Source of the DNA: Morganella psychrotolerans
GTDB lineage: Bacteria; Pseudomonadota; Gammaproteobacteria; Enterobacterales; Enterobacteriaceae
Assembly: GCF_001676055.1 (NCBI RefSeq)
Contig: NZ_LZEX01000034.1
Location: 186,001-250,000, forward strand
DNA: 64,000 nt
Direction of reading: 5' to 3'
Positions 1-40,731 of the stretch are shown piece by piece; positions within the stretch are counted from its first letter, which is position 1, and each line of letters starts with the position of its first letter. Below the pieces are notes generated by a model that searched no databases, had not been told where the DNA came from, and was given only the letters and a program-made list of their open reading frames with translations. Made by a program: the position numbers and the translations under genes.

Positions 1-3
1 CAT

Positions 4-36
4 AAGAACAGGGTAATTAATAACCTGTTCTTTATT
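4..36 (+). terminator. Possible rho-independent terminator at the left edge
   Basis: A 9-bp stem (AAGAACAGG paired with CCTGTTCTT) is followed by a short U-rich tail on the plus strand. It could end a plus-strand transcript that enters from outside the window. The reverse orientation would serve the small minus-strand ORF at 81-500. The tail is weak, so this is tentative. Confidence 0.4.
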
Positions 37-80
37 TGGCACCATTGCTTAATCAGGTTGAAGAGCAGATGAAATAACCA

Positions 81-500
81 CTAAATATGAGAGAGCAGAG
101 TAGACTGGCTTATCGGATTATTCTGCTCAACTATTCTATCAGCAAGAGAGAAACCTTCACTATCACACGCTATTATGTTGATGATGGCACTAAAGTCATT
201 TTCATATAAATACGTCCTTATATGGCGACCACTGTACCTATCATTTATGTAGATAATGGAGTTTTCAACCATTTTCATGAATTCAGCGTTAATTACATAG
301 TCTATTGATTTTTGTGATATGCCCTTCGCTATATGTATAACCAATAAGTTTGATAGTGTCTCTGAGCTGCTGTAATCACTTTTTAGGCTCATAGAGCACA
401 GCGCTTTCCCAGCACTGGTTACAGTGAACCCGAGATCATTTGCCATTCTTTCAACTTCGTCGAATGTATTTTTTTCTTTTTTCCGGAACAGGCCAAACAT
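81..500 (-). CDS. Hypothetical prophage protein, 139 aa
   Basis: I do not recognise this 139-residue protein. It has no signal peptide or membrane segment. The N-terminus is lysine-rich (KKEKN) and the rest looks like a small soluble alpha/beta protein. It lies downstream of the antirepressor gene on the same strand, separated from it by a terminator, so it probably has its own promoter in the gap at 501-550. AT-rich codon use and position place it with the prophage accessory genes. A role in lysogenic conversion is possible but nothing in the sequence shows it. Confidence 0.6.
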   Translation of the reverse strand: MFGLFRKKEKNTFDEVERMANDLGFTVTSAGKALCSMSLKSDYSSSETLSNLLVIHIAKGISQKSIDYVINAEFMKMVENSIIYINDRYSGRHIRTYLYENDFSAIINIIACDSEGFSLADRIVEQNNPISQSTLLSHI

Positions 501-550
501 ATCTTTCTCACATATACAGTGTTTTATTTCAGTATATGACGGCCTATATC

Positions 551-577
551 AAAAAGCACCGGCCTAAACCGGTGCCC
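551..577 (-). terminator. Rho-independent terminator of the antirepressor gene
   Basis: On the minus strand a GC-rich hairpin (GCACCGG, loop, CCGGTGC) is followed by a U-run. It sits just after the stop codon of the ORF6N antirepressor. Confidence 0.75.
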
Positions 578-584
578 GATCACA

Positions 585-1316
585 TTATAACTTACTGACA
601 GCGTGTTCTATGTACTGAGCGTGGGTGATGATGGTGTTGATGGTTTTACCCATATCGCACATATAATCGCGGAGCCACATCAGGACGCGCTCTGCTTCTT
701 CCACATTGTGGCCGTCCCGTTTCAGGTAGGCCAGAAGCTGATGGAGCGTATCGTCTTCCGGCGACCGGAGGAAGTCATTGAGGATCTGCGGACGTGACTT
801 CTTCGTTTTCGGGAAGCTGTATTCCTGCGCTACCTGCCCGGCAGGGATGAACTCACCTTCGTGAATGGTACGTTGGAGCTGATCCACCAGCGCCAGCAGT
901 TCATCGGTAGAGGCATTGCGGGGTAATGATTTATTGATCCGGCCGGTGCCGCGGTACTTGGTGAAGTAGTTGTCTTCCAGAATCTCAAATACATCCCAGG
1001 CGCGATCGGTATCCAGCATTTTGGCATGACGTGCAGCGCCGCGTTCTGTCCAGAGAATGAGGTGACTGGCTTGTTTATTAACAATATTAACCAGCTTACT
1101 TTGAGTAAGTTGCTTCTTAAAATCTTTTAAAATTGAACCAGTTAACTTGAAGTAATGTTTGCCATCGACAAATCTATTTCTGTTGCGTGAATGGTTTACT
1201 TGAATGTTTCTGATTTCAGTTTCATATGCATCAGCGAGTAGTTCAGTGGTGATCACTGGCATGCTGTTATGAATGATAGACGGCAGGTGCGATACAGAAA
1301 TGCTGAGATTAGTCAT
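585..1316 (-). CDS. Phage antirepressor with ORF6N domain
   Basis: This 243-residue protein carries an ORF6N domain at about residues 20-120. Visible family marks are the region around NRNRFVDGKHYFKL, the LWTERGA motif, and AKMLDTDRAWDVFEILEDNYF. ORF6N/KilA-N proteins are DNA-binding antirepressors or regulators of temperate phages. The C-terminal half (about 130-243) is phage-specific and unassigned. The ATG is preceded by AGGAGA with 8-base spacing. The upstream leader contains a c4-like structured RNA, which supports an Ant role under antisense control as in P1/P7 and P22. The gene is transcribed opposite to the tailspike and lysis genes, as expected for an immunity or antirepressor locus. 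A terminator follows it. Confidence 0.85.
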   Translation of the reverse strand: MTNLSISVSHLPSIIHNSMPVITTELLADAYETEIRNIQVNHSRNRNRFVDGKHYFKLTGSILKDFKKQLTQSKLVNIVNKQASHLILWTERGAARHAKMLDTDRAWDVFEILEDNYFTKYRGTGRINKSLPRNASTDELLALVDQLQRTIHEGEFIPAGQVAQEYSFPKTKKSRPQILNDFLRSPEDDTLHQLLAYLKRDGHNVEEAERVLMWLRDYMCDMGKTINTIITHAQYIEHAVSKL

Positions 1317-1359
1317 TTTGACGTCTCCTGTGAGATATTTTACATCACCACCGGAGGTG

Positions 1360-1451
1360 CAAATCTCTTGGGTGGTGAACTGAGCAGGGTTTGCACTACC
1401 GGACTCACAGTACCGGCCTACCTTTCGGTAGCCCTGCCCAGCCCACCATTG
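1360..1451 (-). ncRNA. c4-like antisense RNA upstream of the antirepressor
   Basis: Read on the minus strand, the leader of the antirepressor gene can fold into several short stems: GCAGGG with CCCTGC around a CTACC-GAAA-GGTAG hairpin, and a CCGG...CCGG segment. From memory this matches the layout of the phage c4 antisense RNA family. That RNA is cotranscribed with ant genes and blocks their translation by pairing to a downstream segment. Position (same strand, directly 5' of an ORF6N gene) agrees. Exact ends are estimated. A covariance-model search for c4 would settle it. Confidence 0.6.
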
Positions 1452-1477
1452 AAAAGATGTAGCTGTGCTTTGTGCAT

Positions 1478-1498
1478 AAAAAAACCGCTAACGCGGTT
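1478..1498 (-). terminator. Terminator after the YafO-like toxin gene
   Basis: On the minus strand the stem AACCGCG/CGCGGTT is followed by seven U residues. It lies about 140 bases past the stop codon of the toxin-like gene and before the antirepressor leader. Confidence 0.6.
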
Positions 1499-1638
1499 AT
1501 GCGCTGTGAGTATTCGGCGGGGTGCAAATCCCGGCACCAGATTTTGCTGGTGCATATTCACTATGGCGCATAATTTGGGGGTTGTAAATATACCAATTTG
1601 GTCATGTTTTTGGAAGGGGAATATTTTTAAGGCGGGGA

Positions 1639-2106
1639 TCAGGTATTGGCTTCCCGGTGTTGACGAGCAAGTTCAACCCACTTCAATATTTGTTCGCTGT
1701 CTTCAATGATGGTGTGAGCCTGATCCCTGACGAAGTCTATAATGTAGAAATGGTGATCGCTGTCAGCATCCAGAAAATACGAGTAAACAACAAACGTATC
1801 ACTGGTACTCCTCCACTGAACAAACAACCCGTCACCATCTTCCCAGATACAACCTTCTTGCCATATGTGAGTATGGTGGAGTTCTTCATATCTGGCAGAA
1901 TTTGGTCTGTCCATCGGCTTATCTCTTCCGATAGTATCAATGTGGGCAGGGTGCTCTAACTGCTCATGGTATGGAGGGATCGGAAGATCGCCGAAATCAA
2001 GGCTTACTGTTTTATATTCCTCAAATTCGGCGATAGGGTGTTCTGTTTCAGGGAACTCATTAATAAATTGTTGTATAAACTGTGATCTTATTAATTTGAT
2101 GCCCAT
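1639..2106 (-). CDS. YafO-family toxin-like protein
   Basis: This is a 155-residue protein. Its central part resembles the YafO mRNA-interferase family. A stretch reading IGRD...ARYEELHHTHIW (about residues 58-82) aligns by eye with the FGRD...FERVAHIHL segment of YafO. A following WRSTSDTFVVYSYF block matches the region that ends in acidic and aromatic residues in YafO. YafO toxins act with the ribosome to cleave mRNA. The gene starts 5 bases after the stop codon of a 39-residue basic ORF, a spacing typical of toxin-antitoxin operons. The N-terminal ~50 residues are extra compared with the 132-residue E. coli YafO. The assignment is from pattern memory only. Confidence 0.6.
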   Translation of the reverse strand: MGIKLIRSQFIQQFINEFPETEHPIAEFEEYKTVSLDFGDLPIPPYHEQLEHPAHIDTIGRDKPMDRPNSARYEELHHTHIWQEGCIWEDGDGLFVQWRSTSDTFVVYSYFLDADSDHHFYIIDFVRDQAHTIIEDSEQILKWVELARQHREANT

Positions 2107-2111
2107 TAAGA

Positions 2112-2231
2112 TTATCTTACCTTAGCCATCTTCTCGGCCAGAATTTTTGATCCAGCTTCAAGCGCCTTTTTAAACTCATCAGAACGACGGATAGTTCTGC
2201 GTTCTTTTTTAACATTTTCTTTATTGGCCAT
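2112..2231 (-). CDS. 39-aa basic ORF upstream of the YafO-like toxin (candidate antitoxin)
   Basis: This short ORF encodes a Lys/Arg-rich helical peptide (KKERRTIRR near residue 10, then an amphipathic stretch to KMAKVR). I chose the ATG with GAGGAG seven bases upstream rather than the longer 75-residue reading, whose N-terminal part lacks a Shine-Dalgarno sequence. Its stop is 5 bases before the toxin-like start, so the two are almost certainly cotranscribed. It is shorter than YafN antitoxins and I do not recognise its family. An antitoxin role is inferred from position only. Confidence 0.5.
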   Translation of the reverse strand: MANKENVKKERRTIRRSDEFKKALEAGSKILAEKMAKVR

Positions 2232-2359
2232 TTGTTTCACTCCTCTGCAACTAATGTGGGATTTCATCACCTCATTGGTCAATGTCAGTATACACAATTT
2301 ATTTCCAGGAAAACAGTTTTCCCCAACACAAAGGGACATTTATGCAATTAGGTGGCGTG

Positions 2360-2382
2360 AAAAAGCACCTTTAAAAGGTGCC
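2360..2382 (-). terminator. Terminator of the 83-aa phage ORF
   Basis: On the minus strand GGCACCTTTTAAAGGTGC forms a hairpin followed by five U residues. It is located just past the stop of the minus-strand ORF that ends at 2408. Confidence 0.65.
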
Positions 2383-2407
2383 TAATTATGCATATATAAT
2401 TATTTGT

Positions 2408-2659
2408 TTATTTATTTAATTCAGAAAAAATAAATTCCAGGTGGGTTTTTATCGTATTCCGCTGTTTCTCCGTGTGCGTAACGTAGTTTTTCAACGCCAC
2501 CATCTCTGTCATCGGCCCTGATACATCATGACCATCCAGATCCATTTCCCGCAGTAACTCCTCGAGCATTGATGTGATGGAAAGTTGCTTAATTCCGTCA
2601 TTGTCGTTAACTTTTTTTGCATAATCTTCAGGCGATTGATACACATATTTCTGTTTCAT
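2408..2659 (-). CDS. Hypothetical prophage protein, 83 aa
   Basis: This small soluble protein has no motif that I recognise. It is acidic in the middle (EELLREMDLDGHD) and helix-rich towards the C-terminus. It sits between the toxin-like pair and the tailspike, on the opposite strand to the tailspike, with its own terminator. An independently transcribed small cargo gene beside a tailspike is a common site for lysogenic-conversion genes, but no function can be read here. Confidence 0.55.
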   Translation of the reverse strand: MKQKYVYQSPEDYAKKVNDNDGIKQLSITSMLEELLREMDLDGHDVSGPMTEMVALKNYVTHTEKQRNTIKTHLEFIFSELNK

Positions 2660-2816
2660 TTTAGATTCCTTTATTGTGCATTATTGCCACTGTTATCATA
2701 TCGATATGAAACTGAAATGTTTATGTAATTGGTCATTGTTTAAATAAAAACAAAACCATTATTCCGTATGTGGTTTGTTTTGGCTATCCTGTCAGTATTA
2801 ACCAGGAGAAAAAGCC

Positions 2817-5081
2817 ATGACCGTATCAACCGAACTTAGCCATGAAGAGTACACCGGCAACGGTGTTACCACTGATTTCGACTTCCGCTTCCGTATCTTT
2901 GAAGCCAAACACCTGATTGTGTCCGTTGCTGACACTGATGGCACCGAACGTATTCTGACGAACGGCACTGATTACACGCTGCGCGGGGTGGGAGCCTACC
3001 GTGGCGGAAAGGTGATCTTAAAAATGCCGCTGGCGACCGGCTTGAAAATCGGTATTGCCCGTGATCTGCCGGCAGTGCAGGAAACCGACCTTCGCAACCA
3101 GGGGAAATTCTTTGCAGAGGTGCATGAGGATGCTCTCGACTACCTCACCATGCTGGTACAGAAGATACTAGGTTATCTGTCGCTGTGCCTGCGTAAACCT
3201 AGTTTTATTGCTGATCACTATGATGCCAAAGGAGATAAAATCTCTAACCTTGGAAAGCCGGTAAAAGACGGTGACGCGGTTGATCTCAGCACGATGAAGG
3301 AGCACATCAGCGCGAAAGATAAACGCTCTCTGCGTGTTGCTGATAAGGATATTCCGGTACTGCCTAATGTTGCTAATCGTGCCAATAAACTGCTGTCGTT
3401 CGATGACAACGGGAATCCGGTGGTCATTGTGCCTGAGTCCGGTAGCGCGGCAGATGTGTTGATTGATCTGGCTAAGCCAGGAGGAGCTGAGCTGATAGGA
3501 ACCGATTCTGGCGGGACAGTTCAGGCAGAAATAAATGATTTACGTGAAGATGCAAAATCAACGAAACGTATATCGGCACCATGCATATCATTTATTTTTG
3601 ATGACGGGAAGATGTCACACGTGACTGTTGTTGCCCCTTTGTTTCGCAGTTATAACCTGCGATGTGGGTTCGCCATAAACACAGAGGGTCTTGGGCTTAC
3701 TGATAATATGCAGGGGTCGGATGTTATCAGCCTGTCAGATGATGGTTTTGAAATAATAAGCCACTCATATTCTGCGGTAAATCTTGGCAGCCAGGTGAAT
3801 GACACGTTCGTTATGGCCGAGTTAAGCACGGCGCAATCAATGTTCTATGAAATGGGGATTTCTCCATCTATATTCCAGGCACCCAGCTCTGTTGTTGCTG
3901 ATGAGCATATGCATATTGTTGATGGATTCTACAGTTACGCATTTACAAGATCGCCGTCACCATTGCCAATGAAAAATGAGTACCCCACCAGGCTGCGCCG
4001 GTTTGGACTGGAAACAGCAACAGGAATCATTAGTTTAGACGAGGCAAAATCTGTTGTTGATGACGCTGTAAGTAAGAATGGCGTTATTGTTTTTTACGCC
4101 CATGATGTCCCTGATGGAAGTGATAAAAAGAAACTGATATCTGACATTATTGATTACGCCATTACAGAAAGGGTAAGTATTGTCCCTCCTTCATCGGCTG
4201 TATTTTCTGCATCAAAATCGCAGAATTTACCATCAAAAATGATTACCATGGGAGATACAATACTCAATGAGTTAAACGGATGGGTGGCGACAAATGGTAC
4301 TGCTCAGGTGACAGCAAACAAAGATATTGTTGTCACGGCCTCATCACCAGGTTCATGTCTTATTCAGTTACCTGTTGGCATGAAATTAACGGACAACAGA
4401 GGGATAACTTTCTCTGCGGCATTCAGAAACCTGAGGGGTTCCGTTTCTTCGGCCTCTATAGGTGCCAATATTTACTCTGGGTCTTCTGTGATCAGTTCCG
4501 TGGAAAAGCCTATCACCGGCCTTGATGCTGTATACCGGAGATATAGTGTATCTCATGTTATGCCTTTTAACGCAGGCAGGATTCTCTCATTTTTCCGGGT
4601 TAATTTTTCTGCCACCGGGGATCAGGTTCTTATCCGCGCTCCTGTTGTTCGTTATGGAACAAGCGTCAACCCGGACACGCACTGGAAATCATTCTACGAT
4701 GTTGGTATTGTCGGCGGACAAACAATACCTAACCCATCATCGTCATATTCAAGGATAAAACTGACCGATTCATCATCTAACGGGCTGTTTTCTGTATCTG
4801 AAAACAAAATATCATTTGACCGCGCGTGCACGGTGTCACTTACTGTATCTATTCTTGCTAACGGAGCTAATTTAGCCGGTAATACCGGTGGTATATTGCG
4901 GATTAGTGTTGGCTCAGCCACATTTAATATTCCGTCATCATCAGGGACTAACAATGCCGGAGCGTCGCAGTCAATGACCATCAATGTCACGACACTGGGA
5001 AATATAGCTTTTGATATGATAAATACCGGGTCGCAATTTACTATAAATAACTTGTCATCTATTAGTATCCAGGAAGTTTGA
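2817..5081 (+). CDS. Phage tailspike/tail fibre with polysaccharide-deacetylase-like domain
   Basis: This 754-residue protein starts with a podovirus-type particle-binding region (about residues 1-120), opening with a TGNGVTTDFDFRF segment. A linker follows to about 250. Residues 255-460 look like a NodB-type polysaccharide deacetylase: FDDG at 261-264 and a late VIVFYAHD block with His at about 429. The usual H-(S/T)-x-x-H zinc motif appears as SHSYSA, keeping the first histidine (about 316) but not the second. The remainder (460-754) is serine-rich beta structure, probably trimerisation and receptor contact. The likely role is recognition, and perhaps deacetylation, of the host O-antigen or capsule. 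AGGAGA precedes the ATG. The lysis genes follow directly, as in epsilon15-like phages. Confidence 0.85.
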   Translation: MTVSTELSHEEYTGNGVTTDFDFRFRIFEAKHLIVSVADTDGTERILTNGTDYTLRGVGAYRGGKVILKMPLATGLKIGIARDLPAVQETDLRNQGKFFAEVHEDALDYLTMLVQKILGYLSLCLRKPSFIADHYDAKGDKISNLGKPVKDGDAVDLSTMKEHISAKDKRSLRVADKDIPVLPNVANRANKLLSFDDNGNPVVIVPESGSAADVLIDLAKPGGAELIGTDSGGTVQAEINDLREDAKSTKRISAPCISFIFDDGKMSHVTVVAPLFRSYNLRCGFAINTEGLGLTDNMQGSDVISLSDDGFEIISHSYSAVNLGSQVNDTFVMAELSTAQSMFYEMGISPSIFQAPSSVVADEHMHIVDGFYSYAFTRSPSPLPMKNEYPTRLRRFGLETATGIISLDEAKSVVDDAVSKNGVIVFYAHDVPDGSDKKKLISDIIDYAITERVSIVPPSSAVFSASKSQNLPSKMITMGDTILNELNGWVATNGTAQVTANKDIVVTASSPGSCLIQLPVGMKLTDNRGITFSAAFRNLRGSVSSASIGANIYSGSSVISSVEKPITGLDAVYRRYSVSHVMPFNAGRILSFFRVNFSATGDQVLIRAPVVRYGTSVNPDTHWKSFYDVGIVGGQTIPNPSSSYSRIKLTDSSSNGLFSVSENKISFDRACTVSLTVSILANGANLAGNTGGILRISVGSATFNIPSSSGTNNAGASQSMTINVTTLGNIAFDMINTGSQFTINNLSSISIQEV

Positions 5082-5120
5082 TTCTCTTTAACGCATTTTT
5101 GTTTATCTTTTTTTTGCTGT

Positions 5121-5152
5121 AGCATCATGGTTATTTAATAATCATGGTGCTA
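5121..5152. repeat. Inverted repeat between tailspike and holin
   Basis: AGCATCATG and CATGGTGCT form an imperfect 9-bp stem around an AT-rich loop, immediately before the first holin start. It may act as a weak terminator or a translational brake on the lysis cassette. Its function is inferred only. Confidence 0.4.
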
Positions 5153-5156
5153 AGCA

Positions 5157-5528
5157 ATGCATGAAGACCTCTCTGTAAAAACCACGCTCAGCCTTGCCGC
5201 GTTCTTCAGCTACTTTGCCGGGCTGCCTGCTGAGGTAGTGATGGGTTCCCTGATGGGGGCTATTTACTTCATCACTGCCGCAACAGAATACACACTTCTG
5301 CGCCGGTCGGTACTGGCGCTTGTCAGTTTCATATCAGGGCTTTTATTCTTTAGCCCGGCAGCGGCACTGTTCATCAAAGTAACCAAGATATTCGAGATCC
5401 CACCTGACGCCTACAGCATTGACAGCATCGATGCCGTGGGTGCTTTTGTGTCTGCGTTACTGTCGGTGAAGCTGAGCATCAAAGCGTATCGTAAAGCTGA
5501 TAGTCAGCAAGGAGGCAACGATGTTTGA
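5157..5528 (+). CDS. Phage holin, first of two
   Basis: This 123-residue membrane protein has two or three hydrophobic segments (roughly residues 10-45, 48-72 and 85-105) and a charged, lysine-rich C-terminus. Its size and position, directly before another small membrane protein, an endolysin-like gene and Rz, fit a holin that opens the inner membrane at lysis. It overlaps the next gene by 8 bases, indicating coupled translation. Whether this one or its neighbour is the holin and the other an antiholin or second holin cannot be told from sequence. Confidence 0.75.
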   Translation: MHEDLSVKTTLSLAAFFSYFAGLPAEVVMGSLMGAIYFITAATEYTLLRRSVLALVSFISGLLFFSPAAALFIKVTKIFEIPPDAYSIDSIDAVGAFVSALLSVKLSIKAYRKADSQQGGNDV

Positions 5529-5793
5529 GAAGTTGTTAATCATCCTGAATGCCGCGATCTGTTCAGTGATTTTTGTCCGGGTATTTACGTTCAGACGTAA
5601 CGGGCGACAGCACTGCACAAAAGGGGCATGGATAGCCTGGCTCGTACTTTCATACTCAGCGAGTGTGCCGGTGCGGGCGTACTTTGATCCCATCTATCAC
5701 GCCGATTTCACCAGCGTGATTTCAAACTCTCTTATTTGTGCGGCGGTGCTGGTGTACCGCGGCAATGTTATGTCATTTTTTAAAGCGGGGTGA
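5521..5793 (+). CDS. Phage holin family protein, second of two
   Basis: This 90-residue protein has three predicted membrane segments. The family look is the opening LIILNAAICSVIFVRVFTFRRNG, an internal SASVPVRA turn, and a final hydrophobic helix ending in YRGNV. It resembles the holin family common in enterobacterial prophages just before the endolysin. It overlaps the first holin by 8 bases and is followed after 3 bases by the hydrolase gene, so all are in one lysis operon. Confidence 0.8.
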   Translation: MFEKLLIILNAAICSVIFVRVFTFRRNGRQHCTKGAWIAWLVLSYSASVPVRAYFDPIYHADFTSVISNSLICAAVLVYRGNVMSFFKAG

Positions 5794-5796
5794 TTT

Positions 5797-6273
5797 ATGT
5801 CAGAGCAGGTTAAACAAAAAGTCTTCAAGGATGGTTTTGTTAACACAGGTGCGCGGGGGATACGGAATAACAATCCGGGGAATATCCGTCATGGCAGTTC
5901 AAAATGGCAGGGGCTGGCAGTAGCACAGCCAGATAGTAAATTTTGTGCGTTCATTTCTGTTGAGTTCGGCATCCGGGCGCTGATGAAGCTCCTGCAAACT
6001 TACTCAAAGCACCAGGGTAAACCCGGTATTGGTTGCGGCAAGATCGACACGGTGGAAGAAATCATAGAGCGCTGGGCACCATCTGGTGATAACAACCACA
6101 CAGAGAACTATATTAAGCGGGTCTGTAAAGAAACCGGCTTTGATCATCACGCCTGTTTAAATCTGCACGACAAAGATACGTCACTCGCAATGGCTAAAGC
6201 GATTGTGGCTGTCGAAAATGGTCAGCAGCCATACGTTGATGATGTTTTTAAACGTGCCTGGACACTTATCTGA
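5797..6273 (+). CDS. Phage peptidoglycan hydrolase/structural protein (lytic-transglycosylase-like)
   Basis: This 158-residue protein has the marks of a phage family usually labelled structural protein or lysozyme-like: RGIRNNNPGNIR at about 19-30, GIRALMKLLQTYSK near 67-80, IIERWAPSGDNN near 88-99, and YI shortly after. It lies between holin and Rz, the endolysin slot, so it most probably degrades peptidoglycan during lysis. It has no signal sequence, so access to the wall would depend on the holins. The stop codon overlaps the Rz start by one base (TGATG). Confidence 0.8.
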   Translation: MSEQVKQKVFKDGFVNTGARGIRNNNPGNIRHGSSKWQGLAVAQPDSKFCAFISVEFGIRALMKLLQTYSKHQGKPGIGCGKIDTVEEIIERWAPSGDNNHTENYIKRVCKETGFDHHACLNLHDKDTSLAMAKAIVAVENGQQPYVDDVFKRAWTLI

Positions 6274-6767
6274 TGAAAAATACAGCCATGGCACTGATTG
6301 CTCTGGCTGTCTCTTTCTCTGCCGGTTGGTGGACCGGCGGTGTTCTGTATGATAACCGGCAGATGAAAGGGCAGATTACAGGTCAGCAACTGGACGAAAA
6401 AGATATGGCCACAAATATCGAACTACGGCATCAGGCGGACGACCACCAGCAGGTAAATGTCGGGGAATATCAGGAGGGGAAAAAGAGTGATACGATACGT
6501 ACAGAAGCTCTGCTTGATCGGGTGCTTAATCATTTTGACCGCATGCAGCAGCCAGCCGGTACCACGAAAGCAGAAGTTGCAGATCCCGGCTACACCGATA
6601 CCTGCCGAACTGAGAGAGACAAAGCCGGTGAACTTTCTCGACAACTACGAAGCACACTTGAAAGATATGGGCGTGAAGCTCAGCGGGCTGATGAGAATAC
6701 CAGGCTCCTTAATCTTTGTATCATTGACCTGAAAGCGAAGGAAAAATTGCTCGAAAGTTACCGGTGA
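6273..6767 (+). CDS. Rz-like inner-membrane spanin
   Basis: This 164-residue protein has an N-terminal signal anchor (about residues 5-24) followed by a long charged, coiled-coil periplasmic region with QADDHQQVNV and repeated E/R/K heptads. This is the usual build of i-spanins, which bridge the periplasm to the o-spanin and fuse the two membranes in the last step of lysis. The o-spanin gene Rz1 is nested in the +1 frame within it, the classical arrangement. Confidence 0.85.
   Translation: MKNTAMALIALAVSFSAGWWTGGVLYDNRQMKGQITGQQLDEKDMATNIELRHQADDHQQVNVGEYQEGKKSDTIRTEALLDRVLNHFDRMQQPAGTTKAEVADPGYTDTCRTERDKAGELSRQLRSTLERYGREAQRADENTRLLNLCIIDLKAKEKLLESYR
6487..6732 (+). CDS. Rz1-like outer-membrane spanin lipoprotein, nested in Rz
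   Basis: This ORF is read in a different frame entirely inside the Rz gene. It encodes a short lipoprotein with a signal peptide ending in the lipobox LTAC, followed by a proline-containing periplasmic part. I chose the GTG start because AGGAGGGG lies a few bases upstream and the resulting leader has the right length for a signal peptide. An ATG 30 bases further upstream (6457) is the alternative. The o-spanin partners the Rz protein at lysis. Confidence 0.75.
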   Translation: MIRYVQKLCLIGCLIILTACSSQPVPRKQKLQIPATPIPAELRETKPVNFLDNYEAHLKDMGVKLSGLMRIPGSLIFVSLT

Positions 6768-6788
6768 AAAAGTAGACAGTTTTGCATG

Positions 6789-7083
6789 TGACGGTATCAG
6801 TGACGGTATATTTTTAGTTTGTTTAAAATAACCACATTAAAATCAATCAATTAAACATTCCATAAACAATTGAGTGGGAATGATATCCCTATAGTTTTTA
6901 ACTGTCGGTAATTATCAGAAAACCGAAAGCCATCAGTAACTTACTGGTGGCTTTTTTGTTTTCTATTGTTTTTAATTGTTGACAAGAGCCGGTATTTTTG
7001 ACGGTATATGTGACGGTATCAAAAAATAAAATCACTATAAACCGGCTGTGATACCGTCAGAAAAATAAAAACTATGACGGTAT
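6789..7083. repeat. Cluster of TGACGGTAT repeats (candidate integrase arm-type/att region)
   Basis: The nonamer TGACGGTAT occurs at 6789, 6801, 6999, 7011 and 7075, and inverted at 7051. One more copy lies inside the integrase gene at 7363. The first two pairs are each spaced exactly 12 bases. Such repeats directly upstream of a P4-type integrase are best read as arm-type sites for the recombinase next to the phage attachment site. A core att duplication was not found in this window. Confidence 0.5.
6926..6957 (+). terminator. Terminator of the lysis cassette
   Basis: AAAGCCATCAG pairs with a CTGGTGGCTTT arm and is followed by a U-run on the plus strand. It ends the holin-hydrolase-Rz transcript and lies between the two blocks of TGACGGTAT repeats. 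Confidence 0.75.
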
Positions 7084-7102
7084 TAAGAGAGAGAATACCG
7101 AC

Positions 7103-7457
7103 GTGCTGACTGATACAAAATTAAAAAGTATGAAGCCGCAGGACAGGCTTTATAAGGTGTCTGATCGTGATGGTTTGTATGTTGCGGTCAATGCTGGCGG
7201 GACTTTGTCGTTCCGTTATGATTACCGGTTTAACGGCAGAAGAGAAACAATTTACTTTGGAAGTTACGGACCTGACGGTGTTTCACTGGCAGAAGCCAGG
7301 CAAATGCTGATTGAAGCAAAAAGGCTGCTCAACTCAGGTGTATCACCGGCTGCAAGCAAACGTGACGGTATCGACAGGAAAAAAGGTGCGACGGTGTTTG
7401 GCGAATACACCGTCAGATATATGCAGAACGTCCGGCTGGCGGACTCTACACGGGCAC
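7103..7457 (+). pseudogene. Truncated P4-type tyrosine integrase (N-terminal part only)
   Basis: About 117 residues remain of a phage/island integrase with the N-terminal DUF4102 arm-binding domain (LTDTKLKSMKP, then LYKVSDRDGLYVAV, FRYDYRFNGRRETIYFG, and SLAEARQ...AKRLL). The catalytic domain with the R-H-R-Y residues is missing. Homology stops at the point where a scrap of IS3-family transposase begins, just before the stop codon read at 7463-7465. No C-terminal integrase piece was seen on the far side of the defence island. The prophage therefore probably cannot excise on its own. Confidence 0.8.
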
Positions 7458-7514
7458 TCGCCTGAGATTTACCGGAAGCAACGGGAAAACTCTAACCAGG
7501 ACTGTTCCAGATAA
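7458..7514 (+). mobile_element. Left remnant of an IS3-family transposase (orfB 3' end)
   Basis: In one frame this reads PEIYRKQRENSNQDCSR and a stop codon, nearly the same as the last residues of the orfB remnant on the other side of the island (PPAIYRKQLENSNLDCFR, stop). The plus-strand copy and the minus-strand copy point outwards-in, so they form an inverted pair about 45 bases long around the OLD/UvrD genes. It marks the left junction of the island in the integrase gene. Confidence 0.7.
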
Positions 7515-7681
7515 GGAAAGGTGGACAAAGGGACATAAAAGTTAGAATTTTTGTTCAAAATTATTTCCGGAATAAAATTCTCAATAAGGGCTGGATAAAG
7601 TGCAAAACATGTACGCAAAATAAACCAAGCAAGTAGCATCGATTTTCGGATTGCTATCTTGATGTGTCAAGGAGGGATTAT

Positions 7682-9787
7682 ATGAAAGTAAGTCGCGTAG
7701 CAATTCGAAACTTCCGGCGATTGGAAAATGTGCAGATTGACATTGAAGAGAAGGAGTCCATTTTTGTTGGTCCGAACAACAGTGGCAAGACTTCTGCGAC
7801 TGCGGTTTTTCGTTGTTTTCTTGGCGGACGAGATTTCAAGATTCACGATTTTTCAGTCGCTCGGATAGCAGATTTCGACACATTTGTAACGACCGGAGAT
7901 GATACACTTCTTCCCAAAATCAGTCTTGACATTTGGTTCACTATTGACCCGGAAAGCATTGGTTTTGGTAGAGTTTTCACATTATTGCCAAATCTTTCAG
8001 ACTTCACGTGTGTAGGGATTAGGCTGTCGTATGAGGTCTCTGAAGTAAGGAAGTTATGCGAGAATTACGACGCTGCCTATCCTCCGAAGGAAGATGGAAC
8101 CCGCTCTAAGTCGCTTTCGCAATATTTATCTCTCGACGGAAATCTTGGCCGATATTTTGCGGTTTGTTACTACTCACTCGACGAGAAGATTCAAGAGGGA
8201 GCACTGCCTGAGATCTTATCGAGTTATCTTGATCCTGATGAAGGAAAGCGTCTTCTTAAGCAGCTTATTCGTGTTGAATTCGTAGACGCGCAGCGCAACA
8301 TTAATGACGATAACAGCAGTCGTAGTAATAGGCTCTCTTCGGCATTCGCCACCTTCTACCAAAAGAACCTTGAGCAGGTTGGGCATGCCGCTGATGCTCA
8401 CAGCGTAATCGATGCGAATAACAAACAACTGACAGATCATTATGCAAAGCAATTTGCTCCACTGATCAATCTCATTAAGCACCTTGGTGTACCGTCAATT
8501 AACGATCGCGAATTGCAGATTATATCATCGCTCAGCCCCGAGACTGCTCTTCGTGGAAATACTGAATTGCTTTACATTGACCCTAATCGGAAGCATGAAC
8601 TACCTGAGCTATATAATGGTCTTGGATTCAAAAATCTAATATATATGGCCATTCAGGCTCGGCACTTCCATTCTCAATGGTTAATGACCACCGATAACAG
8701 GCCTTTGTGTCTGATGATCTTTATTGAAGAACCTGAAGTTCACCTCCATGCTCAGGTACAACAAACTTTTATATCCAACATTTGGCGGGTAATTAATCAG
8801 TCCGCTGAGGCGGCTGGAGAGCCGAATCTCGTACCGCAACTTGTCGTAACCACACATTCTTCACATATCATGGAGGCTGTAGATTTTGAGAAAGTTCGCT
8901 ATTTCCAGCGCTGCCATAGTGAGGGTGAAGTAGAAACGACTGGCATTCGCAATGCATCAATGGTTAGAAGCCTCCGGGCCTTCCAGCCAAACGTGGAGAC
9001 AATTGATGGTAAGGTTATCCCACCATCGGAATCACTAGCCTTCCTTAAACGCTATTTACGTCTAACACACTGTGACCTATTTTTCGCCGATGCTGGCATC
9101 CTTGTTGAAGGCGCTGTTGAGAAGTTGTTAATGCCGACCATGATTGAGAGTGCTGCTGAGCGGTTACGGACTGTATATCTCACAGTTTTGGAGGTAGGGG
9201 GAGCGTATGCTCACCGTTTCGAGGGTTTGTTTAGCTTCCTTCATATTCCCTATCTTGTTATCACTGACATTGATTCAGTTTCACCTACCGGTTATCCCAA
9301 AACCTGTCGAGCGGATATTGCTGGAGCAAAAACGTCTAACGCGTCCCTAAAGAAACTTTGTGGGCTGACAACAATTGACCAACTGATCGCATTGACTTGT
9401 GCGCAGAAGCAGCACAACGATAAGGATCGTTGCATCGCTTTTCAGACCGATGTTTTGGTCGAGGAAAATGATGCCAGCGCGATGTTGCGTCCACGCACGT
9501 TGGAAGAAGCAATTGTATATGAGAATTTTGGGCTACTTCGATCTGGTGCTTTATCTATTGGCATTACTATCCGAGCGCCTCTCAGCGACGCTTACCAGGA
9601 TGTTTACGATAGGGTTCGGTCGGATAATTTCAAAAAAACTGATTTTGCCATGGACATCTTGGCTTGCGCTGAGCAATGGATTGTCCCTGGATATATTGCC
9701 GAAGGGTTGAAATGGCTTGAGTCGCGCCTATTACCCCCGCTACCAGTGGTGGTGGATACAGAAGCCTCTGTCGCGGCGGGAGAATAG
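7682..9787 (+). CDS. OLD-family ATP-dependent nuclease, GajA-like
   Basis: This 701-residue protein joins an SMC/ABC-type ATPase to a TOPRIM nuclease, the OLD architecture. Visible motifs: Walker A GPNNSGKT at 30-37, Walker B with FIEEPEVHLHAQ near 345-356, a switch histidine in TTHSSH near 390, the TOPRIM glutamate in ILVEGAVEK near 474, and a DIDS acidic motif near 527. Class 2 OLD proteins are defined by an adjacent UvrD/PcrA-like helicase, and that partner follows after one base. GajA of Gabija nicks phage DNA in this arrangement. I chose the ATG with AGGAGG six bases upstream; an in-frame GTG lies six codons earlier. Flanks are transposase remnants, so the pair looks imported. Confidence 0.88.
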   Translation: MKVSRVAIRNFRRLENVQIDIEEKESIFVGPNNSGKTSATAVFRCFLGGRDFKIHDFSVARIADFDTFVTTGDDTLLPKISLDIWFTIDPESIGFGRVFTLLPNLSDFTCVGIRLSYEVSEVRKLCENYDAAYPPKEDGTRSKSLSQYLSLDGNLGRYFAVCYYSLDEKIQEGALPEILSSYLDPDEGKRLLKQLIRVEFVDAQRNINDDNSSRSNRLSSAFATFYQKNLEQVGHAADAHSVIDANNKQLTDHYAKQFAPLINLIKHLGVPSINDRELQIISSLSPETALRGNTELLYIDPNRKHELPELYNGLGFKNLIYMAIQARHFHSQWLMTTDNRPLCLMIFIEEPEVHLHAQVQQTFISNIWRVINQSAEAAGEPNLVPQLVVTTHSSHIMEAVDFEKVRYFQRCHSEGEVETTGIRNASMVRSLRAFQPNVETIDGKVIPPSESLAFLKRYLRLTHCDLFFADAGILVEGAVEKLLMPTMIESAAERLRTVYLTVLEVGGAYAHRFEGLFSFLHIPYLVITDIDSVSPTGYPKTCRADIAGAKTSNASLKKLCGLTTIDQLIALTCAQKQHNDKDRCIAFQTDVLVEENDASAMLRPRTLEEAIVYENFGLLRSGALSIGITIRAPLSDAYQDVYDRVRSDNFKKTDFAMDILACAEQWIVPGYIAEGLKWLESRLLPPLPVVVDTEASVAAGE

Positions 9788-9788
9788 C

Positions 9789-11627
9789 ATGAGGACATGG
9801 ATAGAAAGCGAAGCGGATATTCAAGTCCGTGAATGCATCGATGGCCATCGTAGTTTTGCGATGATAGCCGGTGCAGGCGCGGGCAAGACTAGTTCACTGG
9901 TAGATGCTCTTGGCCGGGTCCGGGATAATGAAGGGAATATCCTTAGAAAGCATGGTCAACGCATTGCCTGTATTACCTTTACCAAGCGTGCGGTTGAGGT
10001 CATCAAGAAAAAATTGGGGTTTGATGAGTTGTACCTAGTTTCGACTCTTCATGGATTTCTGTGGGGCTTGATTGGCCATTTCCACGAAAATATTCGTCAA
10101 GCATTATATGAAAGCCGTATTCCAAATCTTATAGACAAGGCTAGGGGAGATGATAACGGCGGTAACAGCAAAAAGGCACTTAAAGCCCGCGCAAAAATAG
10201 AACGACTGACAGAACAGCTTGCCCTTCTCGAAGCAGTCAATCATTTTGACTATTCTGACACTAGCTTCAGTGATTACGAAAAAGGACAGATTGGGCATGA
10301 TGATGTCATAGAAATTGCAACCTACTTGCTTGAAAATAATCAAACACTTAGACGAATCATTGGCCTACGTTTCCCTTACATCTTCGTCGACGAAGCACAG
10401 GACACATTTGAGGGAATCGTTTCAGGGCTCAATCTCGTCTGTGCGGGTGATGAACTTCCTATGATTGGCTATTTTGGTGACCCCTGGCAGCAGATTTATG
10501 ACCGAAGTGCCGGTGATTTTGCGCCACCAGACAATGGTAAAGTCATCAAGAAAGCTGAAAACTTTCGCAGTTCTAAGAGCGTTATCCGACTTCTCAATGC
10601 TTATCGTGGGGATGTTGAGCAGTATGCTGCTGGCGAAAATGCTGAATGTGAAGGTAGTGTTGAATTTTTGCTAATTAAAGCAGAAGAGCCAACAGAACCA
10701 CGCAGGCGCTATTCAGAAGAACAGATTGAGCGGGCGCTAGCTCGTATGGATGCTGCAGTCGAAAACTGGGGGTGGGCAGGCCGCGACGATGTCATGAAGC
10801 TCTTCCTGGCACGTCAAATGATCGCGCGACGGCTTGGCTTCGCTGATCTCAATCGCCTCTTCACTGGAGACTATGCCTCATCACGGGCTCAAGATGCTTT
10901 TGAGGAAGGGACGCATTTCCTTCTTAAGCCATTTCTTTCGACGATTTGCCCTCTCATAACAGCTCAAAGCCAGGGTGACGATCGAAAAATTATTAATCTA
11001 CTTCGTAGAGATAGTCCTGCTTTCGCGAGCGATGGATTAAATGCGGAAAAGTCACTGAAAGTGATGATTGAGACTTCGAAGTCTTTGGTTGAGCAGTTGC
11101 ATGCTTTGTGGGATACCGAGACGATTGGAACGGTCCTTCACTTTTGCGTCGAGATGCAGATAACCCAGCCCTCAGAAAGGTTGAGTGAGCATCTTGATCG
11201 TCCTCCACGTACTGAGCCTTTCAATGAGGAGCTTCACAGTTTCGACAAAGGAGACTGGCTCGCAGACTCATTTTTTAAAATGACCACCGGAGCAGTCTCA
11301 CACTATGTCGAATATCTTAACAACAATACCGACTATAGTACTCAACATGGAGTCAAGGGCGAGGAATATCAAAAAGTATTGGTCGTTTATGATGATGTTG
11401 AAGCAGCATGGAACCAGTACAGCTTTAGCAAAACCCTAATACCGCTCACCGCTGGCGAGCCATCTGTTCGACAACTTTCTGTAACTCAGAAGCTCGCGTA
11501 TGTCTCATTTTCCCGTGCGGAGGAGGATCTACGTATAGTACTTTTTACAGCTGATCCTGAGGGAGCACGGGCTGAACTAATTGAAAGCAAATTATTATTG
11601 TCTGATCAGATCCGAATTATGGCCTGA
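9789..11627 (+). CDS. UvrD/PcrA-like superfamily I helicase, GajB-like
   Basis: This 612-residue helicase shows Walker A GAGAGKT (28-34), motif Ia ITFTKRA, motif II VDEAQD (about 199-204), motif III GYFGDPWQQIYD, motif IV ENFRSS, a degenerate motif V region HGVKGEEYQKV, and motif VI VSFSRAEED near the C-terminus. It starts one base after the stop codon of the OLD gene, so the two are translationally coupled. In Gabija, GajB binds GajA and enhances or terminates its nicking activity. It is longer than the ~490-residue B. cereus GajB, so it belongs to a larger subgroup or has extra insertions around 320-480. A 24-codon upstream extension inside the OLD gene was rejected as start. Confidence 0.87.
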   Translation: MRTWIESEADIQVRECIDGHRSFAMIAGAGAGKTSSLVDALGRVRDNEGNILRKHGQRIACITFTKRAVEVIKKKLGFDELYLVSTLHGFLWGLIGHFHENIRQALYESRIPNLIDKARGDDNGGNSKKALKARAKIERLTEQLALLEAVNHFDYSDTSFSDYEKGQIGHDDVIEIATYLLENNQTLRRIIGLRFPYIFVDEAQDTFEGIVSGLNLVCAGDELPMIGYFGDPWQQIYDRSAGDFAPPDNGKVIKKAENFRSSKSVIRLLNAYRGDVEQYAAGENAECEGSVEFLLIKAEEPTEPRRRYSEEQIERALARMDAAVENWGWAGRDDVMKLFLARQMIARRLGFADLNRLFTGDYASSRAQDAFEEGTHFLLKPFLSTICPLITAQSQGDDRKIINLLRRDSPAFASDGLNAEKSLKVMIETSKSLVEQLHALWDTETIGTVLHFCVEMQITQPSERLSEHLDRPPRTEPFNEELHSFDKGDWLADSFFKMTTGAVSHYVEYLNNNTDYSTQHGVKGEEYQKVLVVYDDVEAAWNQYSFSKTLIPLTAGEPSVRQLSVTQKLAYVSFSRAEEDLRIVLFTADPEGARAELIESKLLLSDQIRIMA

Positions 11628-11661
11628 GGATTGTTATTGACTTTTGATTGGCTTATTCAGA

Positions 11662-11915
11662 CTATCTGAAACAGTCTAGATTAGAGTTTTCCAGTTGTTT
11701 CCGGTAAATCGCGGGTGGAAGATTATTCAGGCCTCCATGTGTCCGGTTCTGGTTATAATCCTGCATCCAGAACCGGTCATTTCTTTTACCTGACTCAGTT
11801 ATTCAAACAAATACGCATTTAAAAATTTATGGTGGAATGATTCGTTAAAACTCGTAATAAACCCGTTTTGTTGTGGGTTTCTCAACTGAATATAATTCAG
11901 TTTTTGTGGGGTTCT
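11662..11915 (-). mobile_element. Right remnant of an IS3-family transposase (orfB, degenerate)
   Basis: Read on the minus strand in pieces, the sequence gives LNYIQLRNPQQNGFITSFN, then FHHKFLNAYLFE, and after a frameshift WMQDYNQNRTHGGLNNLPP and the tail that matches the left remnant. These are the C-terminal rve/DDE landmarks of IS3-family orfB (NGFIESFN and YN-x-RPHGGL in intact members). It carries an internal stop codon and at least one frameshift, so it is non-functional. Its orientation is opposite to the left remnant. Confidence 0.75.
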
Positions 11916-12179
11916 ATAGTGAATTACCGATTAACCTCACTATTATTTTAACTTTTCCCTATATCCACATTTTTACCTTTTCAATATAAATCCGTATTAC
12001 CAGATTTTTCCCGCATTGCACATAATCCCAAACACAACACCAGCGCAGATCCTCAATTTATCAGGCAAATAAGCAATTTTGACCCTAATCAATAAAATGG
12101 ATTATTGTCAGTATATGCATTGACTAAAATTGTAAGTAATACCATCATTGTGTGAAGGTAATCACATAATGAAAATAAA
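11916..12179. other. AT-rich gap right of the defence island
   Basis: No ORF, RNA gene or repeat was recognised here. It is the transition from the transposase remnant to chromosomal sequence near xthA, and may contain the lost right end of the prophage. No copy of the TGACGGTAT repeat is present. Confidence 0.5.
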
Positions 12180-12329
12180 ATGATTAAAATGATAGATAAT
12201 GAAAGTCAAATGAGTACAAAGCAGGGATTGGTGGCTATTGAGTATTTTGTTCAGATTTTTTTCAGAGTATCGCTTGTCGTTGTGGCCGTAACATTTTTGT
12301 GCCCGATCCTTGCATTTGCCGTGATGTAA
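12180..12329 (+). CDS. Small hydrophobic protein, about 46-49 aa
   Basis: A short ORF with a polar N-terminus and one strong transmembrane segment (YFVQIFFRVSLVVVAVTFL, then CPILAFAVM). ATG codons at 12180, 12189 and 12210 are all possible starts; none has a strong ribosome binding site. It reads towards the end of xthA, which is on the other strand. The clear single-span build argues for a real small membrane protein, but I do not recognise a family. Confidence 0.4.
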   Translation: MIKMIDNESQMSTKQGLVAIEYFVQIFFRVSLVVVAVTFLCPILAFAVM

Positions 12330-12430
12330 TTTTTGGTTTTGTCCGGGATATATTTTGCGGACCAGGCTGAAATAAATGAAGCTCCGTACCGGGAGCTTCA
12401 TTCAGGTTATTTCTTTTGGATCTGACATTG

Positions 12431-13240
12431 TCAGCGGGTCAGATCAAATTCTGCCCAGATTGGTGCGTGGTCTGAGGGTTTTTCCATACTGCGGATTTCA
12501 TAATCAATGCCGGTGGCAGTACAACGCGGTGCCAGTCCCAGGCTTGCCAGGATAAGATCAATACGCAGACCCCGGTTTTCATCAAACCCGCGTGAGCGGT
12601 AATCAAACCACGAGAAGCGATCGTCTGTATCCGGATACATCGCACGGAAAGTATCTGTCAGCCCCCAGTTGAGCAGGCGTTCCATCCATTCCCGTTCTTC
12701 CGGCAGGAAAGAGCATTTCCCTGTTTTAAGCCAGCGTTTACGGTTGGCTTCACCAATACCGATATCAATATCAGTGTGACTTATATTCACGTCGCCCATG
12801 ACAATGATCGGATCCTGATTCGAACGTCCGGACAGATAGTCCTGCAAATCCTGATAAAATTTCATTTTTGCCGGAAATTTCAGCGGGTGGTCGCGGCTTT
12901 CACCCTGCGGGAAATAGCCGTTAATAACGGTGAGTAACCCGGCGGGTGTTTCAATATCAGCCATAATAAGGCGGCGCTGAGCATCTTCATTATCACCGGC
13001 AAACCCTTTACGTACGGCAACCGGCTTATTTTTTGTCAGTAGTGCAACGCCATAGTGTGATTTCTGGCCATGATGAAAAATGTGGTAACCCAGATGTTTA
13101 AGGTCATCATGGGGAAACATGTCGTCGTGAACTTTGATTTCCTGTAAGCCGATAACATCGGGCTGATGTTGCGCGATGATAGCTTCCAACTGATGAGGCC
13201 GGGCTCTTAACCCGTTAATATTAAAAGAAACAAACTTCAT
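12431..13240 (-). CDS. xthA: Exodeoxyribonuclease III
   Basis: A 269-residue Mg-dependent exonuclease III/AP endonuclease that removes abasic sites and 3' blocks in base excision repair. The order of catalytic motifs is standard: [14 protein letters not shown] at the start, LQEIKV with the metal glutamate (34), [13 protein letters not shown], and a C-terminal SDHAP histidine. Length matches E. coli XthA (268). It stands alone and faces the end of the defence island. Confidence 0.97.
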
Positions 13241-17523: not shown

Positions 17524-18429
17524 ATGTCAGCGCTGAAAAATAAGGTTCATAAGGCCGTGATCCCGGTTGCAGGATTAGGAACACGCATGCTTCCGGCCAC
17601 CAAAGCAATTCCGAAAGAAATGTTACCGCTGGTGGACAAACCACTTATCCAGTATGTCGTTAATGAATGTATCGCCGCAGGGATCACTGAAATTATTTTA
17701 GTGACCCACTCCTCAAAAAACTCCATTGAAAACCATTTTGATACCAGTTTTGAACTGGAAGCCATTCTGGAAAAACGCGTTAAGCGTCAGTTACTCGATG
17801 AAGTTCAGTCAATCTGTCCCCGCCATGTCACTATTATGCAGACCCGTCAGGGGATTGCGAAAGGGCTGGGACACGCCGTGTTATGTGCCCGCCCGATGAT
17901 CGGTGATGAGCCGTTTGCTGTTGTGCTGCCGGATGTGGTTATCGATGAGTACAGCACTGACCTGTCAAAATTTAATCTCAAAGAGATGATCGGGCGCTAT
18001 GAAGAGCATCAGGCAAGCCAGGTGATGGTCGAACCTGTGCCGCTTGAGGTTGTCTCAAACTATGGTGTGGTCGATTGTCATGGTGAAAGCCTGGCAGCGG
18101 GCGAAAGCAAACCGATGTTTGCCGTGGTCGAAAAACCGGAGCCGGCTAAAGCGCCATCTAATATGTCTATTGTCGGTCGCTATGTGTTATCTCCGGATAT
18201 CTGGTCGCTGCTGGGTAAAACAGCCCCGGGTGCGGGTGATGAAATCCAGTTAACGGATGCCATCGCTATGCTGATTGAGAAAAACCCTGTTGAGGCTTAC
18301 CGCCTGGTCGGACGCAGTCACGATTGCGGCGACAAAATGGGTTATATGAAAGCGTTTGTCGAATACAGCATGCGTCATAAACATCTGGGTGGTGAATTCT
18401 CAGATTGGCTGAAAACATTACAGAATTAA
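17524..18429 (+). CDS. galU: UTP-glucose-1-phosphate uridylyltransferase
   Basis: A 301-residue nucleotidyltransferase that makes UDP-glucose for LPS core, galactose use and UDP-sugar synthesis. It shows the signature [19 protein letters not shown] near residues 17-35 with the catalytic lysine region, and later VEKP and GDKMGYMKA segments. It is followed after 22 bases by a UDP-glucose dehydrogenase and then an epimerase, so UDP-glucose would be channelled into UDP-glucuronate and UDP-galacturonate. In E. coli galU lies beside hns but without these two genes. Confidence 0.96.
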
Positions 18430-31916: not shown

Positions 31917-32041
31917 TATACCCTTATTCATTCAAACTGCAGGTTCGTTGGCTGCTGTCAGCCAGCCGGGTCACATACTTGTGTATGCTCCCCGTCTGTC
32001 TTCCCTTGCCGCCTGCCTGCATTTTGAATGACGCTGGGTAT
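31917..32041. repeat. ERIC element upstream of the ABC operon
   Basis: A 125-bp imperfect palindrome from TATACCCTTATTCATTC to TGACGCTGGGTAT, with the ERIC core of GTCACATACTTGTGTATGCTCC. A 20-base piece of another ERIC right end (CTGAATGACGTTGGGTATA) abuts it at 31901-31919, so two insertions have occurred at this place. Confidence 0.9.
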
Positions 32042-36170: not shown

Positions 36171-36194
36171 TGGCGGCCTCCCCGGAGGCTGCCT
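36171..36194 (+). terminator. Stem-loop between oppA and oppB
   Basis: GGCGGCCTCC pairs with GGAGGCTGCC with almost no loop, just after the oppA stop. Without a T-run it is more likely an mRNA stabiliser or attenuator that keeps oppA expression above the permease genes. An ERIC follows at once. Confidence 0.5.
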
Positions 36195-36197
36195 GTG

Positions 36198-36322
36198 TAT
36201 ACCCAACGTCATTCAGGATGCAGGCAGGCGGCAAACTCCGACCTATGGGGAGCATACATAAGTATGTGACCCGTCGGGTATCGTTCCGCCAACGACCCTG
36301 CAGTCTGAATGAATAAGGGTAT
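36198..36322. repeat. ERIC element inside the opp operon
   Basis: Full-length copy in the reverse orientation relative to the one at 31917, with TATACCCAACGTCATTC at one end and GAATGAATAAGGGTAT at the other and a core GGGAGCATACATAAGTATGTGACC. Located between oppA and oppB, it will be part of the operon transcript and form a long hairpin. Confidence 0.9.
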
Positions 36323-36361
36323 GTATGTACCCCGGGAGCGGGTACTGTATAGGAACGGGCA

Positions 36362-40458: not shown

Positions 40459-40731
40459 ATGAAGAGACATCCGGATAAACATATCCAGTCGGCTATTGAG
40501 TATGCATTGCTTCAGGGCTGGGTTTGGATCTCTGGGGGAAATTCGGCACATGCGTTTTGCCGGTTACGGTGCAGCTCTCCGGCTGAAAAACACCGGTTAC
40601 ACCAGATGAGCGTCTGGTCAACACCGCGAAGCCCTGAGAATCATGCGAAGCAAATTATAAGAAAAGTATACCCTTATTCATTCAAACTGCAGGTTCGTTG
40701 GCTGCACTCAGCCCGCCGGGTCACATACTAG
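40459..40731 (+). CDS. HicA-like small protein, C-terminus fused into an ERIC element
   Basis: The first ~70 residues (KHIQSAIEYALLQGWVWISGG, SAHAFCRL, MSVWSTPRSPENHAKQIIRKV) belong to a family of ~80-residue enterobacterial proteins with a dsRBD/HicA-like look. The natural end after IRKV is lost: an ERIC inserted at that point supplies the last ~21 codons (VYPYSFKLQ and on) up to the stop. A GTG at 40411 would add 16 residues but overlaps the palindrome. The protein may still fold because only the extreme C-terminus is replaced. A toxin role is a guess from fold resemblance and the HTH neighbour. Confidence 0.5.
   Translation: MKRHPDKHIQSAIEYALLQGWVWISGGNSAHAFCRLRCSSPAEKHRLHQMSVWSTPRSPENHAKQIIRKVYPYSFKLQVRWLHSARRVTY

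Follow-up and report, generated by a model that had tools for sequence, protein, structure and literature searches.

A predicted Gabija defence system beside a prophage in Morganella psychrotolerans, probably brought to the guaA 3' end by an integrative island that has since decayed

How does a defence gene pair come to stand between a prophage with a broken integrase beside it and two pieces of an insertion sequence (IS), and to which element does the broken integrase belong? The question is raised by a 64,000-nucleotide stretch of Morganella psychrotolerans DNA (assembly GCF_001676055.1, contig NZ_LZEX01000034.1, positions 186,001 to 250,000 of the forward strand; hereafter the window), in which two genes resembling the Gabija genes gajA and gajB occupy 7682-11627. 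We hold it to be probable, at roughly 80%, that a complete Gabija system reached the locus as part of an integrative island inserted at the guaA 3' end, and that the IS remnants represent later local damage. Directly visible in the sequences compared are the copies of the attachment site (att), a tandem prophage with a full-length integrase, a truncated second integrase, a missing right att and the presence of the same Gabija lineage at guaA elsewhere.

Two guaA att copies lie 40.25 kb apart, with an epsilon15/phiV10-like prophage between them. The 230 bp at 6866-7095 of the window have a 99% identical copy at C34:152617, the end of guaA (open reading frame, ORF, C34:151036-152634). The att copy in the window, att2, is a guaA 3'-end attachment repeat with the guaA terminator (6869-6957, plus strand) and has the core ATTGAGTGGGAATGA at 6869-6883. 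Of the 17 bases of the attP core reported for ZX5, phiV10 and epsilon15 (PMC9782041), 16 recur in this core, and 90 bp of att2 are 98% identical to the right-hand att in a second genome of the genus. A cluster of six GACGGTAT sites flanks the core on both sides (6790-7083); six of the eight copies in the window fall within this segment, the shuffle mean being 1.2 for the whole window. The sites are probably arm-type integrase sites, as expected from their position on both sides of the core.

At the far end of the prophage, immediately following the first att, stands a full-length integrase of 400 amino acids with arm, core and catalytic domains. Beside att2 stands the 5' fragment of a second guaA-type tyrosine integrase (7103-7456, plus strand), which is of the right family and in the right place, with only 118 codons left: Arm-DNA-bind_3 is recognised (E 4.6e-19) and the domain search gave no Phage_integrase domain, leaving the arm-binding domain alone, with the catalytic domain missing. 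The region of att2 and this fragment equals the att and integrase region of the prophage in 525 of 591 bases (89%), and the match ends at 7456. As the att copies bound a prophage already equipped with a full-length integrase, the prophage ends at att2 and a second element begins with the fragment. The truncated integrase thus belongs to this second element, which lies to the right of att2 (6869) and carries Gabija as cargo, and not to the prophage. A preliminary description of the locus had placed the pair inside the integrase of the prophage and supposed that excision was thereby disabled; the broken integrase starts another element instead, and, judged from sequence alone, the prophage keeps both its full-length integrase and both att copies, contrary to disabled excision. 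The fragment was also compared with an integrase in L048 (6854-7207): the two are near identical at both ends and clearly diverged in mid-stretch, a mosaic that suggests recombination between guaA elements.

The cargo of the second element is predicted to be a full-length Gabija system with all four Toprim residues. gajA (7682-9787, plus strand, ATG at 7682, 701 amino acids) would encode an OLD-type ATPase with a Toprim nuclease, with Walker A at residues 30-38 and with E476, G506, D529 and D531; gajB (9789-11627, plus strand, ATG at 9789, 612 amino acids) would encode a UvrD-like helicase with Walker A at residues 28-35 and DEAQD at 201. Both frames read as had been described, the gajB start being one base past the gajA stop. 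The PADLOC models match both products over nearly their full length (GajA, E 5.6e-211, residues 1-685; GajB, E 1.3e-174, residues 6-611), and Pfam recognises AAA_15 (residues 1-396) and OLD-like_TOPRIM (467-531) in GajA and UvrD-helicase in GajB; no NCBIfam model matched the pair near its cut-offs. Among solved structures, Bacillus cereus GajA came out on top with the window GajA as query (3.5e-7 with the single sequence, 1.2e-11 with a profile), and solved GajB was matched by the profile search only (3.3e-6), the single-sequence search not reaching it at 1e-5. The catalytic positions E379, G409, D432 and D434 of B. cereus GajA (PMC10781630) correspond to E476, G506, D529 and D531 of the window in a gapless alignment to the 8jq9 sequence, and the four are invariant across the window and 15 aligned relatives (L032 and L040 excluded). 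PADLOC placement, Toprim residues and profile matches together uphold the identification as Gabija that had been proposed from the sequence.

The products had also been described as larger than the reference Gabija proteins, which is right as arithmetic and wrong as a sign of unusual size, since the best-matching PADLOC GajA and GajB models are 736 and 632 positions long. GajA measures 689-705 amino acids in 16 relatives, and a script found a gajB-sized ORF adjoining gajA in 15 of 16 relative loci, a count taken without L040, where a contig end cuts the locus. A GajA relative in a Nitrosomonas metagenome-assembled genome (L034, 8001-10103) is 71% identical, and the script saw no gajB-sized ORF alongside it. 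Against the three closest relatives, from Erwinia, Citrobacter and Phytobacter, the ratio of nonsynonymous to synonymous substitution rates (dN/dS) is 0.10-0.16. The gajA-gajB pair was thus under purifying selection, much of which may predate its arrival.

The same lineage stands at guaA in other genera. The sample comprised 17 GTDB genomes with a close relative, and 18 relative stretches were fetched. guaA and gajA lie within 10 kb on one contig in four of the 17, namely Pectobacterium, Xanthobacter, Erwinia and Phytobacter (gaps of 0.3, 1.8, 8.7 and 9.9 kb, respectively). The order in Xanthobacter is guaA, integrase, Gabija, with no other gene recognised between; in Erwinia and Phytobacter, several genes, including a TrbL/VirB6-like gene (domain tested in Erwinia only), stand between the integrase and Gabija, and Phytobacter has a right att copy at L038:17544. 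In Citrobacter, guaA and gajA are on separate contigs, the gajA contig being 99.4% identical to Phytobacter over 8.5 kb and bearing a guaA-type att near its end. In Pectobacterium carotovorum (L028), Gabija alone lies between att repeats at 7656-7744 and 12143-12229 (89 bp, 95.5%). An empty site, at which the flanks of this unit overlap at a single att, was seen in 10 of the 24 further genomes of the genus; the other 14 either have the flanks apart or gave no match to the right flank. Among the 12 genomes in which guaA and gajA are not seen to be linked is G009, where guaA is followed by 63 residues of a guaA-type integrase (62% identical) and gajA lies on a different contig.

A scan of IMG/VR found a single relative, contig L086, whose layout repeats that of the window: phage-like ORFs (lysis genes were recognised by eye) are followed by an att, the remains of an integrase running into gajA, then gajB and, with two mismatches, another att copy. 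At 7252-9176 of this contig, a deletion has fused the guaA-type integrase, broken off midway, to the central part of gajA (residue 311 onward), and gajB is whole. The integrase is broken or not recognised in the window, in the same-genus genome G004 (see below), in L028 and in L086, and is of full length in L027, L033 and L038; integrase loss is recurrent among the guaA cargo units examined.

Beyond these relatives the lineage is seldom met. An order-wide survey gave a match at E <=1e-60 in 8 of 394 genomes, and because the best match besides that in the genome itself is 50% identical, the lineage is rare in this sample. No relative was found in 5,426 complete E. coli genomes (near mode with 7440-11930, distant mode with 7682-11627), and the GajA matches in plasmids (348 records) and in phage records (four) are all below 60% identity. 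Horizontal acquisition, as the preliminary description had it, is supported by the comparison of five other genomes of the genus, which gave only weak partial matches to the pair, with Erwinia, Citrobacter and Phytobacter, where GajA is 94-95% identical.

At the right border of the island, no second att repeat was found; the last base with IS homology, 11901, is also the first of the flank beyond the att. In G004, the match to this host flank (11901-12430 of the window) comes right after the right att copy (L023 from 18307, a few bases from the end of the right att there at 18310-18313). Since the flank joins at about the point where the att ends in G004, the right att has been lost in the window; the present state is that of a decayed island, not of a working one. 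The locus is bordered on the right by a core gene at 12431-13240 (minus strand), which we take from its protein sequence to be xthA; it is present in all six genomes of the genus, at 83-94% identity in the others. G004 is the nearest of these genomes (guaA 96%, right flank 89%) and has at the same site (L023 15306-18313) guaA and an att, then 2.9 kb holding a HipA gene and a small gene of the helix-turn-helix type, a second att and the xthA flank. The small gene is below Pfam cut-offs, and no integrase was recognised in the 2.9-kb unit. A gene pair resembling these two is seen in the Phytobacter guaA island, beyond Gabija.

The remnants on both sides of the pair belong to an IS that we take to be of the IS3 family; it was read from partial copies in which the far end is unseen. 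Its frame encodes a DDE integrase core (rve_3, 1.7e-25 in a copy in the same genome; rve, 5.1e-17 in a copy in another genome of the genus), in agreement with the preliminary assignment of both flanks to an IS3-type orfB in opposite orientations. The reference for what follows is the copy elsewhere in the same genome (L003), with E-values for a search of the 64-kb window. The left remnant (7459-7527, plus strand), which comprises the orfB 3' end and the right terminal end of the IS, equals this copy in 61 of 69 bases (88%, E 2e-20) and runs to an IS end (..GTGGACA) common to several IS copies. As had been described, it begins where the integrase homology ends, that is, at 7459 after 7456. The right remnant (11663-11901, minus strand), a broken 3' part of orfB, equals the copy in 203 of 240 columns (85%, E 2e-72); it has stops and a gap of one base. 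Aligned with each other, the remnants agree over 48 bp at 87.5% (E 2e-9), in line with the roughly 45-bp 3' end that had been noted on both sides; the right remnant is about five times longer than had been noted, and the final 14 bp of the IS are missing from it.

The window becomes homologous to the Erwinia, Citrobacter and Phytobacter relatives at 7528, immediately past the IS end, and the shared sequence takes in the region upstream of gajA (7528-7681, plus strand). Because these relatives continue to the left of the equivalent position in mutually shared sequence, the IS end has cut into an older, longer module. Copies or pieces of the IS are present in all six genomes of the genus; it was not found in any of the 18 stretches with Gabija relatives (9.6-18.1 kb each). 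The remnants therefore look like later local decay. A search of plasmids with the IS 3' end (near mode) gave no match.

These observations bear on the transfer that the preliminary description had suggested, in which gajA and gajB were carried together into the integrase by a pair of inverted IS3-family copies, in the manner of a composite transposon. The arrangement invites such a reading, with remnants on both sides whose 3' ends point inward and a left IS end that touches the Gabija module at 7527/7528. A composite transposon requires two outer terminal ends and a target-site duplication. Neither remnant has an outer IS end, both outer junctions falling inside the IS, and hence no target-site duplication is readable; the right remnant is without its inner end too. 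Together with the absence of the IS from the relative stretches, its presence throughout the genus and the relatives that occupy guaA without this IS, this makes transfer as a composite transposon very unlikely, and it was rejected. The prophage itself might instead have carried Gabija as a cargo gene at its lysis-gene end. Its right-hand part takes up 1-6868 (plus strand), with PHROGs matches to a tail protein (2817-5081), a holin (5157-5528), an endolysin (5797-6273) and, weakly (5e-4), an Rz-like spanin (6273-6767); similarity to phiV10 and TL-2011b lies upstream, where 54% of a 7.9-kb structural stretch aligns with both at about 69% identity and two further records match in the 90-95% band. 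Gabija adjoins the lysis genes, and defence systems in E. coli are reported to reside most often in prophages (PMC10121019). Between prophage and Gabija, however, lies an att copy with the probable arm-type sites, the integrase and att of the prophage are at its other end, and in Pectobacterium and Xanthobacter the pair directly follows guaA and an att or guaA and an integrase. Prophage cargo is therefore most improbable and was likewise set aside.

A further possibility is that the pair is a relic between IS scraps that has lost its function. The island would indeed be immobile by itself, as it has lost both the right att and the catalytic domain of its integrase, and a scan of 7440-7700 for sigma-70-like promoters detected none on the plus strand and one minus-strand match at about shuffle level. 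Set against this are two open frames with their motifs kept, the low dN/dS, though most of that selection may predate arrival, and the retention of about 150 bp of upstream sequence common to three other genera. Loss of function is thus unlikely, and the guaA island remains the preferred account of how Gabija came to the locus.

Several points weigh against that account. With the right att missing, the second element has no measured right end, and its border is guided by G004 alone, because no guaA was seen in the 9-12 kb around xthA that were fetched from three other genomes of the genus. A right att copy was likewise not found in the fetched Erwinia and Xanthobacter stretches. The relative was not seen near guaA in 12 of the 17 genomes, where contig breaks could hide some cases, and the Citrobacter contig breaks before a link between guaA and gajA can be read; the link to guaA is therefore strong only for the closest relatives and Xanthobacter. 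Similarity of the sequences to the solved Gabija proteins is weak (GajA 3.5e-7; GajB none at 1e-5 with one sequence), and the predicted structures are too uncertain for use, with mean predicted local distance difference test (pLDDT) scores of 57.9 for GajA and 59.3 for GajB. A fold search with the low-confidence GajB model ranked UvrD, Rep and PcrA first and GajB lower, at a template modelling (TM) score of about 0.3. Finally, the order in which prophage, island and IS arrived is inferred.

Under the island account, an element with a guaA-type integrase and Gabija would have arrived by integrase-mediated recombination at guaA, and the epsilon15-like prophage would have occupied the same site in tandem, before or after it. 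IS3-family copies resident in the genus might then have landed on both sides of Gabija, and deletions from these copies might have removed the integrase catalytic part, the right att and the outer IS halves. The defence genes would thereby have been left fixed in place after the loss of their mobility parts. In characterised Gabija systems, GajA and GajB form a GajA4-GajB4 complex, the endonuclease activity of GajA is strongly inhibited by ATP and GajB, a helicase-type ATPase, is proposed to regulate GajA (PMC10781630, PMC10568477). By analogy, GajA (ABC-ATPase plus Toprim) and GajB (a superfamily 1 helicase) of the window would form one 4:4 complex, in which GajA would be a nucleotide-inhibited DNA endonuclease cutting phage DNA and the GajB ATPase might switch GajA on.

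A broader and more tentative idea is that guaA serves as a trading post, where att-bounded defence cassettes that have lost their integrase are moved by the integrases of tandem guaA elements, epsilon15-like prophages included; the mobility of such cassettes is hypothetical, and we consider the idea possible but doubtful. It rests on the Pectobacterium Gabija unit (L028), a unit in L151, a ThsB-like gene in L153 and the HipA unit of G004. The L151 unit (196-11695), at the guaA site of another Pectobacterium genome, is an 11.5-kb segment between two att-like sites with MkoA-like, IetA-like and other genes; no integrase was recognised by eye in the first 60 residues of its ORFs of at least 110 amino acids, and no family search was made. 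If the idea holds, the L028 and L151 units, the HipA unit and the broken integrase of the window would be stages of one process.

Elsewhere in the window, six repeats of about 120 bp occur in both orientations and are 78-94% alike (31917-32041, 36193-36325, 40667-40797, 45536-45654, 52375-52498 and 56808-56942); the repeat is also present in L023 of G004. Enterobacterial repetitive intergenic consensus (ERIC) elements were considered and rejected, as the primer pattern with up to 3 mismatches gave no match. In addition, 32865-34154 and 34629-35920 form a diverged tandem pair of about 1.3 kb at 66% identity.

The main text of a survey of E. coli defence islands does not name guaA (PMC10121019), another report uses guaA only as a typing gene (PMC13310844), and the accessible parts of the literature pairing Gabija with Morganella or guaA contain no description of this arrangement. 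The locus is a clear example of a defence system that the loss of its mobility parts has apparently fixed in the genome, here beside a prophage that uses the same attachment site, and one Gabija lineage is found at guaA across several genera. It also corrects a natural misreading, in that a broken integrase next to a prophage need not belong to that prophage.

Several known systems resemble parts of this arrangement. Cis-mobilizable elements (CIMEs) are att-bounded units without an integrase, and the Pectobacterium copy, Gabija alone between att repeats, resembles them as far as its sequence goes. In Stenotrophomonas maltophilia, guaA likewise borders a variable defence region, the guaA-pgrR island, although the host is another and most Gabija systems there are reported from a different island (PMC11680222). 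With the Gabija system of B. cereus VD045, which consists of a class 2 OLD nuclease and a UvrD/PcrA/Rep-like helicase, the pair in the window shares gene order, domains and the four Toprim residues (PMC10568477, PMC10781630). It differs in low similarity to the solved proteins and in size (701 and 612 against 578 and about 494 amino acids), the longer GajA and GajB being normal for their PADLOC subgroup. A parallel for the site is given by the epsilon15, phiV10 and vB_EcoP_ZX5 prophages and by GIsul2; their att core likewise lies at the end of guaA, where both phages and GIsul2 are known to integrate (PMC9782041, PMC9376610). In ZX5, the att core lies 190 bp before the integrase (PMC9782041), and GIsul2 carries between att sites an inner unit that excises separately (PMC9376610). 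Unlike these elements, the island in the window has Gabija as its cargo and a broken integrase.

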